Origin: Ignavibacteriota bacterium
GTDB taxonomy: Bacteria > Bacteroidota > Ignavibacteria > Tepidaquicellales > Tepidaquicellaceae
Length of the DNA: 64,000 nucleotides
Direction of reading: 5' to 3'
Assembly: GCA_016218085.1 (NCBI GenBank)
Contig: JACREY010000008.1
Span: forward strand, 372,001-436,000
The notes under the pieces were generated by a model, which worked only from the letters and a program-made list of their open reading frames with translations, was not told the origin of the DNA and did not search any database. Below, piece after piece: positions 9,311 to 52,583 of the stretch (position 1 is the first letter of the stretch; every line of letters begins with the position of its first letter). The position numbers and the translations under genes are program-made.

Positions 9311-9386
9311 TTTTTGCACTCCGGAGGAGTGGAATATTTATAGCACAGAATTCCTCTGCCTTGCGGCTCCGGAGGAGACGGATATA
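9311..9386 (+). repeat. Palindromic intergenic repeat, family 1, copy 1
   Basis: A unit of about 75 bp starting TTTTTGCACTCCGGAGGAGT, with the core palindrome GCACTCC...GGAGTG, then an AT-rich linker (AATATTTATAGCA) and a second palindrome CGGCTCCGGAGGAG. Two further copies lie at 9721-9796 and 10387-10461 in the same orientation. Differences between copies are point changes, so the family is moderately young. Confidence 0.85.
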
Positions 9387-9458
9387 AAATTATCATTATT
9401 TTTTTTTAAAATAAAAAATATAGTGAAATTATACTCACAAATGTATTGAAAAATAAAT

Positions 9459-9629
9459 TAGCCCCGGAGGGGCTGCCTGTTTGTAGATGATTTGATGTTT
9501 CTGAAAACAAAGCTCCGTAGGAGCGACCTATGATTATAATCTCATAAAACAATTGTTACAGGTCGCTCCTACGGAGCTTAGAAATTTTTTTCATTCATAT
9601 TCTACAAACAGTTCGCCCCTACGGGACTC
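9459..9629 (+). repeat. Nested inverted-repeat element, family 2, copy 1
   Basis: A unit of about 171 bp. It starts with the palindrome GCCCCGGAGGGGC, then has an outer inverted repeat CTGTTTGTAGA / TCTACAAACAG, and inside it a perfect 20-bp inverted repeat beginning AAGCTCCGTAGGAGCGACCT, whose loop is AT-rich. The other end carries CGCCCCTACGGGAC. Further copies are at 10129-10299 and 10468-10639. No ORF. The architecture resembles a MITE-like or large BIME-like element. Confidence 0.9.
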
Positions 9630-9720
9630 TTTTTTATTGAATATTATTGCTAGAGTTTTCTTGAAGAGCAGGGAGATTCGACGAGACGAGAAAAATTGTC
9701 AAACGAATATGTTGATTAGC

Positions 9721-9796
9721 TTTTTGCACTCCGAAGGAGTGCAATATTTATAGCATAGAATTTCCCTGCCTTGCGGCTCCGGAGGAGACGGATATG
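9721..9796 (+). repeat. Palindromic intergenic repeat, family 1, copy 2
   Basis: Second copy of the GCACTCCGAAGGAGTGC unit with the same AATATTTATAGCA linker and CGGCTCCGGAGGAGACGG second palindrome as the copy at 9311-9386. Here the first palindrome is perfect around a GAA loop. Confidence 0.85.
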
Positions 9797-9880
9797 ATTT
9801 TTTTGTAAACCGTTGAAACGGTTATGATTTCGATTGAAATTTTACCCATGGTTAAAACCGTGGGCTACATTTAAAAAACA
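9797..9880. repeat. Short hairpins ACCGTTGAAACGGT and CCATGGTTAAAACCGTGG
   Basis: Two small dyads stand in tandem: ACCGTT-GA-AACGGT at about 9817, and CCCATGGTT...ACCGTGGG at about 9845-9864. They are GC-rich hairpins in AT-rich DNA, of the same general style as the neighbouring repeats but with different sequences. Confidence 0.6.
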
Positions 9881-9932: not shown

Positions 9933-10010
9933 CTATAATACTTTCACCCCTTCGGGGTTTGTATATTAGATTCAATTTTTTCTATAATATTTTCACCCCT
10001 TCAGGGTTTG
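9933..10010 (+). repeat. Two REP-like units with CTATAATA head
   Basis: Two units, 9933-9961 and 9982-10010, each consist of CTATAATA, a 4-6 nt spacer and a small hairpin (CACCCCTTCGGGGT, and CACCCCTTCAGGGT with one mismatch). The same head plus hairpin arrangement occurs five or more times around the transposase gene at 23308-23781, linking this block to that element. Confidence 0.75.
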
Positions 10011-10128
10011 CGGTTTTATAATTTTGCAGATTCTTCTTGAAGAACAAGGAGACTCATCGCGACATAAAAGAATATATATTAAGAGCTAAAAATAAAATAA
10101 ATATTTTCTAATTTATTATACAATAATT

Positions 10129-10299
10129 TAGCCCCGGAGGGGCTGCCTGTTTGTAGATGATTTGATGTTTCTGAAAATAAAGCTCCATAGGAGCGACCTG
10201 TGATTATAATCTCATAAAACAATTGTTACAGGTCGCTCTAACGGAGCTTAGAAATTATTTTCATTAATATTCTACAAACAGATCGCCCCTACAAGGCTT
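10129..10299 (+). repeat. Nested inverted-repeat element, family 2, copy 2
   Basis: Second copy of the 171-bp element, same orientation as 9459-9629. Outer arms CTGTTTGTAGA / TCTACAAACAG are intact. The inner arms carry independent changes (GCTCCATAGGAGC on the left, GCTCTAACGGAGC on the right), so the long inner stem is weakened in this copy. Confidence 0.88.
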
Positions 10300-10386
10300 A
10301 TATTTTTTATTTTTCCGAAAGTCCCTTTTAAGAGCAGGGAGATTCGACGAGACGAGAAAAATTGTCAAACGAATATTTTGATTATC

Positions 10387-10461
10387 TTTTTGCACTCCGA
10401 AGGAGTGCCATATTTATAGTACGGAATTCACCTACCCTGCGGCTCCGGAGGAGCCGGATAT
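10387..10461 (+). repeat. Palindromic intergenic repeat, family 1, copy 3
   Basis: Third copy of the GCACTCCGAAGGAGTGC unit; its second palindrome reads CGGCTCCGGAGGAGCCG, a more perfect dyad than in the other copies. A family-2 copy follows after 6 bp, and the same two families are also associated at 9311-9629. Confidence 0.85.
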
Positions 10462-10467
10462 TTCAAT

Positions 10468-10639
10468 TAGCCCCGGAGGGGCTGCCTGTTTGTAGATGAT
10501 TTGATGTTTCAGAAATTAAAGCTCCGTAGGAGCGACCTTTGATTATAATTTCATAAAAAATTGTTACAGGTCGCTCCTACGGAGCTTAGGAATTCTTTTT
10601 ATTTATTTTCTACAAACAGATCTCCCCTTCGGGGCTTAT
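10468..10639 (+). repeat. Nested inverted-repeat element, family 2, copy 3
   Basis: Third copy of the element of about 171 bp. The inner 20-bp inverted repeat (AAGCTCCGTAGGAGCGACCT and its complement) is again perfect, and the outer CTGTTTGTAGA arm is kept, with TCTACAAACAG on the far side. It ends 68 bp from the stop of valS. Confidence 0.9.
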
Positions 10640-10707
10640 CAATAAAAAAAGCGGCTCGACTGAACCGATTTTAATTGTACATTGTACATTTGAAATTGTA
10701 AATTGAG

Positions 10708-23307: not shown

Positions 23308-23781
23308 TTATTCATACGGATTCACAATCCAATCAAATAAATATTTTTCATTAAAATCTACTTCATATTTTTTCAAAAAATCATAATATTCTTCTTGAAA
23401 TGTTTTTTTCTTGTGATGCTTTTCCTGATTTAATATATAATTATATACGACCGCAACTTGTGATTGCGCATAAGAAAATGCACCATATCCCTCCTGCCAC
23501 GAAAATTTTCCACTTACAAATTTCTTATCATTTATAAAATTTGTTGAATTATTTTTTACATCTCTGACCAAATCTGAAATTGCCATAACCGGTTTCAATC
23601 CAATGAATGCGTGAACGTGGTCAGGCATACCGTTTACAATTATAGATTTCTGACCTTTTGCTTTTATTATGCCTGCAATGTATTTATTTAATTCGTATTT
23701 CCAATTTTCACCGATTAAATTTTCCCTTCCTTTAAAGGCAAAAACAATTTGTATATAAATTTGTGAAAATGTACCTGCCAT
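23308..23781 (-). mobile_element. IS200-type RAYT transposase (TnpA_REP)
   Basis: A 157-residue Y1 HUH-family protein. The HUH motif is HVH at residues 55-57 (GMPDHVHAFIGL), the catalytic Tyr is most likely Tyr115 in NYILNQEKHH, and WQEGYGAFSYAQSQV is the usual linking motif. These are the features of IS200/IS605-type TnpA, and of the REP-associated tyrosine transposases (RAYT) in which the gene is flanked by short REP palindromes instead of its own ends. Here REP-like units lie on both sides within 10 bp, in opposite orientation to each other. It has no accessory tnpB. The ORF is intact. Confidence 0.88.
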
Positions 23782-51873: not shown

Positions 51874-51924
51874 ATTCTTGTTTAATCCATATATCTTTTC
51901 CATCGAAGAATATGAAATTGCATA

Positions 51925-52087
51925 TTCTGGCAGGTCTCCTGACTCGTGTGCTTTTTTTAGTCTGCCTTCCCATCCATTTAAGAACAGTGGCAAAAAGTTA
52001 GACTAATCTTCACACTTACAGTTGCGTGGACAGTCCCGGATTTTCACCGGATTCCCTTTTAATCACTACAACGAGTGAACCGGAATA
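51925..52087 (-). promoter_or_regulatory. Cobalamin (AdoCbl) riboswitch
   Basis: On the minus strand, 5' to 3': a TCCGGTTCACTCG start, then GGGAATCCGGTGAAAATCC, GGGACTGTCCACGCAACTG, GCCACTG, and the B12 box GAGTCAGGAGACCTGCC at 51929-51945. These are the conserved elements of the cobalamin riboswitch in the expected order. It is about 125 bp upstream of a btuB-like gene, with a dyad GAATATG / CATATTC (51908-51927) directly after it. An ORF of 79 codons that spans it is not a gene. Confidence 0.95.
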
Positions 52088-52091
52088 TTAT

Positions 52092-52583
52092 TTAAAGAAC
52101 TTTTTCGAAGTCTAACTTAATCAATTTATTTTTTATTATCAACTGCCTTTCCTTTACACTGGCTTTCTCAAACATTCTTCTCGATGCCTTCACCGAATCT
52201 GTATCTTTGTATTTGTCCGATAAATATATAATCTCAGTAATACCTGACTGGATTATCAGCTTGGCGCATTCATTGCAGGGAAACAACCCTACGTAAAGTT
52301 TTGCGCCGTGCAAATCCTTCGTCGAATTTAAAATTGCATTCGCCTCCGCGTGTACTACATACGGGTACTTGGTTGCATTTACGTTTTCTCCGGTTCTTTC
52401 CCAGGAAAAATCATCATCACTGCACCCTATCGGAAATCCGTTGTATCCGATACCAACAATCTTGTTGTTCTTACCCACTATGCATGCTCCAACCTGTGTA
52501 TTCGGGTCCTTGCTTCTCTGCGCTGAAAGCAAAGCAATGCCCATGAAATACTCATCCCAGCTTATGTAATCTTTTCTTTTCAA
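52092..52583 (-). CDS. dCMP deaminase
   Basis: A 163-residue deaminase that turns dCMP into dUMP for thymidylate synthesis. The zinc site is visible: HAEANAIL (His and catalytic Glu) and PCNEC with the two Cys ligands. The N-terminus (DEYFMGIALLSAQRSKDPNTQ) and VGACIVGKNNKIVGIGYNGF are typical, as is FSWERTG. Its start overlaps the stop of the UPF0200 kinase gene by 4 bp, so a short operon with the kinase and a lipoprotein gene is likely. The ComEB-type uptake role is not implied. Confidence 0.93.
   Translation of the reverse strand: MKRKDYISWDEYFMGIALLSAQRSKDPNTQVGACIVGKNNKIVGIGYNGFPIGCSDDDFSWERTGENVNATKYPYVVHAEANAILNSTKDLHGAKLYVGLFPCNECAKLIIQSGITEIIYLSDKYKDTDSVKASRRMFEKASVKERQLIIKNKLIKLDFEKVL

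Follow-up and report, generated by a model that had tools for sequence, protein, structure and literature searches.

The window analyzed here is a stretch of 64,000 nucleotides from an Ignavibacteriota bacterium (contig JACREY010000008.1). Within it, the convergent genes for a GTPase and valS are separated by a gap of 1883 bp that holds tetrads, half-elements, and hairpin units of at least four families. By tetrad we mean four hairpin units, two leftward and two rightward (9457–9632 for the first), laid out as outer hairpin, GTAG, inner hairpin, 30-bp core, inner hairpin, CTAC, and outer hairpin. Three tetrads are present, at 9457–9632, ~10128–10304, and 10466–10640. The features are listed below.

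9311..9385, minus strand: half-element of another family, with outer hairpin GCACTCC.., head CTATAAATATT on the minus strand, and a second hairpin (by reading)
9457..9632, no strand: tetrad 1, a four-hairpin mini-element without a gene (sequence and fold)
9460..9474, minus strand: left outer hairpin AGCCCCGGAGGGGCT, centre 9467.5
9477..9486, minus strand: left head CTGTTTGTAG, which is CTACAAACAG on the minus strand
9510..9529, minus strand: left inner REP-like unit, one side of the perfect 20-bp stem, with hairpin GCTCCGTAGGAGC centred at 9518.5
9530..9559, no strand: core separating the inner units; the gene position in transposase-bearing relatives
9560..9579, plus strand: right inner REP-like unit, with hairpin GCTCCTACGGAGC centred at 9571.5
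9602..9611, plus strand: right head CTACAAACAG
9615..9627, plus strand: right outer hairpin GCCCCTACGGGAC, stem partly decayed
9804..9868, plus strand: single REP-D arm, hairpins AACCGT..ACGGTT and CCCAYGG..CCGTGGG, as beside the L026 transposase (by reading)
9933..10010, plus strand: two single REP-C-like units, CTATAATA-N8-CCCCTTCRGGG
10128..10304, no strand: tetrad 2, inner stem decayed, in a ~365-bp duplicated block with tetrad 1
10466..10640, no strand: tetrad 3, homology stops at its outer hairpins
23326..23781, minus strand: intact gene for a REP-C-family Y1 transposase, lying between outward REP-C units

A preliminary description of this DNA had reported an outer inverted repeat enclosing a perfect 20-bp inner one, and both are there in tetrad 1. 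The outer repeat is CTGTTTGTAGA (9477–9487) / TCTACAAACAG (9601–9611), and the inner repeat lies at 9510–9529 / 9560–9579. The repeats are nested because each arm is made of two short hairpin units approximately 50 bp apart, with the arms facing away from each other. The hairpin centres are 51 bp apart in the left arm and 50 bp apart in the right arm, where the inner hairpin centre and the outer hairpin's CTAC served as reference points. GTAG in the left arm and CTAC in the right arm sit between the two hairpins, closer to the outer one. At the head-to-head units, the window copies read CCTATG / CCTTTG. Folded as single-stranded DNA, tetrad 1 gave –50.7 kcal/mol as compared with –15.1 ± 2.9 kcal/mol for 200 dinucleotide shuffles (z –12.2). 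It is possible that the tetrad also forms a very stable hairpin as RNA, as had been proposed, yet the evidence presented below points to recognition of the tetrad as DNA by a transposase.

Also as described before, copies 1 and 3 have a perfect inner stem, and that of copy 2 is altered. In copy 2, three of 22 positions are non-Watson–Crick (86% paired). We looked for the compensatory changes that had been suggested as a check and found none between the two arms; the mismatches read A·C, A·A, and G·T, and therefore reflect decay, not compensation. An earlier concern was that the copies might all lie in larger duplications. This applies to copies 1 and 2, which have a duplicated block of ~365 bp in common (9431–9795 / 10101–10461), but not to copy 3, where the similarity runs from outer hairpin to outer hairpin only.

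A search of the bacterium's own genome with the tetrad gave 24 matches, and the only full-length ones are the three window copies. The remaining matches are single units or arrays, besides the reverse-strand self-matches of the palindromes. All full tetrads of this genome are at one locus, two of the three within the duplicated block, and they are outnumbered by single units and tandem arrays with a period of ~50 bp. One of these arrays (G000 C14:189172–189499), built from the hairpin unit of the window with a 52-bp period, might be misread as a CRISPR array. The clustering at one locus, the duplicated block, and the excess of units and arrays are what one would expect from ordinary REP/BIME sequences, that is, static clusters of inverted REPs that grew in place through recombination or replication slippage and in which no four-hairpin unit is mobile. 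The boundaries of copy 3 at its outer hairpins argue against this, as do data from other genomes that we describe below.

The gap itself also has something to say about what these sequences are. Among 30 fetched loci, counting the window's own, an adjacent convergent pair of the GTPase gene and valS was found within the fetched DNA of nine relatives, and there the gap is only 47–148 bp. The locus from the same genus (G001) was left out of this comparison, since its contig breaks 354 bp past the GTPase gene. From the difference between 47–148 bp in relatives and 1883 bp here, we conclude that insertions accumulated in a formerly short spacer. These data bear on whether the hairpins are transcription terminators or RNA-stabilizing structures kept for host function. 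The position between two convergent genes and the strong folding are in line with such a role, but the relatives with the same gene pair manage with their short spacers, the hairpin sequence tracks the transposase rather than the neighbouring genes, and we know of no termination role for a CTAY-N9 head. We therefore regard a host function of this type as very improbable.

Other sequences have entered the same gap. The 75-bp half-element with head CTATAAATATT is present in three copies (9311–9385, 9721–9795, and 10387–10461), and we identified no cognate transposase for it in the own genome. The transposases of the REP-D family (L026 and L136), whose arm is also found here, have only ~33% identity to our query, and in this family a classical GTAG seems to be present at the foot of the outer hairpin. 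Elsewhere in the same genome, the start of contig C8 and the end of contig C20 (G000; L271, L272) share one tetrad of the REP-B family. Because both end in this tetrad, the two contigs are probably neighbours and the repeat broke the assembly. The window further contains a cobalamin riboswitch (51912–52099, minus strand) and proteins with YPNPFNPTT-type C-terminal tails, which we take to be a mark of type IX secretion. These tails and the named matches to the window's hairpin family both indicate Bacteroidota.

To connect the hairpins with an enzyme, the Y1 transposases (PF01797) of the own genome were examined; there are six matches, five of them above the cut-off. The cognate of the window hairpin family is at C12:194566–195023. 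It carries CTACAAACAG-N-TCGCTCCTACGGAGC on both flanks and is frameshifted, which may conceivably be an assembly artefact. Its closest relatives are intact, with 73% and 69% identity. Other transposases of this genome are flanked by other hairpins: the L025 gene by a different family (CTATTAACAGG..ACCCCTACGGGGT), the L027 gene, which is the one at 23326–23781, by CTATAATAATTTCATCCCTTCGGGAT, and the L026 gene by CCCACGGTTTTAACCGTGGG with AACCGTTTTAACGGTT. With its units, the gene at 23326–23781 is a complete gene-bearing element inside the same window as the tetrads. In the two related genomes with the closest relatives of the C12 gene (G031, locus L179; G043, locus L180), tetrad arms with heads CTACAAACAG surround the intact transposase gene, which takes the place of the 30-bp core. 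An isolate, Flavobacterium branchiophilum NBRC 15030, likewise has an intact gene between two arms of the tetrad type.

The transposases are ~150 aa long and of the IS200-like Y1 (HuH) type. They exceed the NCBIfam cut-off for IS200/IS605 and are below that of the NCBI REP-associated transposase. The nearest solved structures by sequence are the TnpA proteins of ISDra2 and ISHp608. A predicted model of medium confidence (mean pLDDT 72) agrees with this, with ISDra2/IS608 TnpA as the top fold matches and the REP-associated transposase 4er8 at rank 30. In an alignment of 20 proteins, D-H-x-H, W-Q, and Y-x-x-N-Q-x-x-H-H are invariant, and the third HuH position varies between T, A, I, and V.

The hairpins next to these genes follow rules of geometry and orientation. 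In the window family, the units have the form CTAY-N9-hairpin and point outward from the Y1 gene. A fixed geometry, CTAY-W-A-N9-YCC-TWC-GGR, is common to three of four hairpin families, and the family of L026 departs from it. The spacing from inner to outer hairpin is 48–53 nt in 25 of the 28 arms with a second hairpin detected by script; the arms outside this range are L112 upstream, L116 upstream, and L108 downstream, where the inner hairpin is within the reading frame. With 20 loci excluded for lack of an intact transposase frame, 56 genes were counted; 20 of these have a strict unit pointing outward within 300 bp and one has a unit in the wrong orientation. In a sample from the phylum (29 loci, 26 of them new, with L221, L224, and L227 duplicating earlier loci), a relaxed unit pointing outward was found at 28 of 29, with wrongly oriented units at seven and a distant one at one. 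Over 20 loci, distances between transposases were correlated with distances between units (Mantel r 0.72, p 1e-4), which shows matching rather than repeated co-evolution because related sequences are not independent. At 15 loci with an inner hairpin of the window type, the seven core-side bases of the two arms agree within a locus at 85 of 105 positions as compared with 65 expected; L064 and L073, in which one of the inner units has a different stem, are absent from this set.

We then asked how units and transposases are distributed over whole genomes. The strict pattern gave 354 matches, in 29 of 59 related genomes, whereas the reversed pattern gave nine. The own genome has 52 strict units belonging to several families. 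At least three units were found in 16 of 17 genomes with a strong transposase match (≥170 bits) as compared with 7 of the 42 others. Because the strict pattern came from the flanks of the first genes, there is some circularity in counts made close to them, and less of it in the genome-wide counts and in the phylum sample. The latter comprises 395 genomes, 89 of them with the pattern and 174 with the transposase profile (E ≤ 0.001). Three or more units were counted in 25 of the 82 genomes whose best match reaches E ≤ 2.5e-60 but only in 7 of 313 others (p 3e-13), and the association of units with transposases persists when the window's own order is removed. The other 57 of the 82 genomes with a strong transposase have fewer than three strict units, probably because the strict pattern covers some hairpin families only. 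Viral contigs gave no match to the family motif.

Tetrads without a gene are present in other genomes as well. In 44 genomes of the own order, inner hairpins placed head to head across 25–55 bp were found in 29 cases, as compared with none for the reversed control. The GC-richer rest of the class showed no excess, with nine matches versus 19 for the control. Twenty-six distinct matches outside the window were fetched and checked (some others were not fetched, and L264 and L268 were left unevaluated). Both outer hairpins are present in six of these, four of which also have both heads, and the complete anatomy is missing in the other 20. By comparison, random placements gave both outer hairpins in 10 of 7000 trials and in addition both heads in none of the 7000. 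A separate head-to-head pattern recovered two of the three window tetrads; an outside match to it, L173 in G034, resembled a transposase remnant but was dropped, since on reading it appears to be the start of a truB-like gene.

By reading, tetrads of the window family were recognized in a Brocadiaceae bin (L069), a Cytophagales bin (L079), and an Acidobacteria bin (L064, L073), although this spread across phyla depends on the bin labels because metagenome bins can be mis-binned. The two Acidobacteria copies are 92% identical over 233 bp and their flanks differ. In G048, two copies of another tetrad are 96% identical over 165 bp, again with different flanks, except that one copy ends at a contig end. 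Of 35 stretches matching the window's hairpin family, three have a transposase nearby, among them the one in F. branchiophilum NBRC 15030. Whole gene-less units that are dispersed in G048 and in the Acidobacteria bin, together with tetrads of one family in separate phyla, make ordinary REP/BIME sequences an unlikely explanation for the window tetrads. The L064 and L073 tetrads are enclosed by a further inverted repeat, AGTAACTRCTC / GAGTAGT, which adds one more level of nesting and may represent a target that is palindromic or else another element.

The tetrad had been likened to a MITE or a large BIME. MITEs are short, non-coding, and have ends in common with a gene-bearing element, and the tetrads resemble them in all three respects. 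The part of the likeness that stands is the inverted REP-like units, the ends common to a transposase-bearing element, and the gene-less copies in other genomes; the part that does not is the classical REP/BIME structure, as the hairpin foot is without GTAG. Inspection by eye of tetrad 3 and of both Acidobacteria copies revealed no target-site duplication, and none is expected if the element is IS200-like. We also found no target site, nor a base-resolved pair of empty and filled sites, for the tetrads. An alternative is a classical DDE-type MITE, bounded by terminal inverted repeats and by duplications of the target site. Such an element would share the inverted ends and the short non-coding body, but the ends of the tetrads are those of HuH/Y1 elements. 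Given this, and as no duplication was seen, we consider a DDE origin the least probable of the alternatives.

As a comparison with known one-gene systems, the element is like IS200/IS605 members such as IS608 and ISDra2 in the sequence and fold of its HuH/Y1 TnpA and in its subterminal hairpins. It is unlike them in having the same hairpin pair at both ends as inverted repeats and a low copy number. REP/BIME/REPIN sequences with RAYT/TnpA_REP (PMC3733652; PMC8266576; see also PMC3116915) resemble our system in their short hairpin units and inverted pairs, in the one Y1 protein that matches each family, and in their dispersed intergenic copies. Our units are short, palindromic, and present in many extragenic copies (their position relative to genes having been checked at the loci that were read), the units dispersed through the genome are those found on either side of the Y1 gene, and the tetrad contains inverted pairs of units, as in a REPIN or BIME. 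The differences are the four-hairpin tetrad and the signal itself, since REPs have GTAG or GTGG 0–2 nt 5′ of the hairpin by the criteria of Quentin et al. (2018), and here CTAY lies 9 nt before the stem. The GTAG in the tetrads is on the opposite strand, 3′ of the outer hairpin. CTAY contains CT, which is the cleavage site given for TnpA_REP in PMC8266576; we mention this as a lead only.

In Quentin et al. (2018; PMC6006769), TnpA_Y1 subclass 1.2 is listed with "REP: no". Our transposases resemble this subclass in its DHxH, WQ, and Y---Q--HH motifs, their length of ~150 aa, the few copies per genome, and their occurrence in Bacteroidetes; they carry the signature DH[IV]H, WQ, Y---Q--HH at ~148 aa, a likeness in printed motifs only. 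They are unlike it, as there described, in that most members examined here have outward hairpin units, with dispersed copies in the genomes. The search in that study demanded GT[AG]G 0–2 nt from the hairpin and likely missed the present units because they have none there. In the open-access literature searched, we found no description of hairpins of the window family or of REPs of subclass 1.2, and the group names had no match in PMC8049555.

Together, these data make it likely that the tetrad is a non-autonomous, gene-less derivative, similar to a MITE or REPIN, of an IS200-like HuH/Y1 element with one gene. The intact element is symmetric, with outer hairpin, GTAG, ~26 nt, inner hairpin, and gene, followed by the mirror image with CTAC. 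We found nothing convincing by eye as a remnant of transposase code in the 30-bp core of the window tetrads, so that an origin by internal deletion is inferred from the anatomy. By analogy with the TnpA of IS608 and ISDra2 and with TnpA_REP, the transposase probably binds the hairpins of its own family in single-stranded form, for which replication forks are the most likely place, and would cut near CTAY with a choice of strand. Repeated joining at CTAY could give rise to the tandem arrays with a period of ~50 bp. The four-hairpin gene-less units seem to be parasites that have lost their own gene. Those in the window are probably inactive relics, because the cognate gene in the own genome is frameshifted.

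With less assurance, we lean toward the broader idea that a transposase subclass without known REPs drives symmetric four-hairpin elements with one gene across phyla by a hitherto unrecognized CTAY-N9-hairpin signal, as well as gene-less tetrads that spread in trans, and that its REPs have been overlooked by searches for a GTAG foot. On this account, a subclass described without REPs would gain a specific, testable DNA substrate, IS200-like elements would be tied to REP/REPIN systems through an anatomy common to gene-bearing and gene-less forms, and a common type of hairpin-rich intergenic DNA in Bacteroidota would be explained. Because the two forms coexist, they may offer a way to test how REP-like sequences originate and spread.
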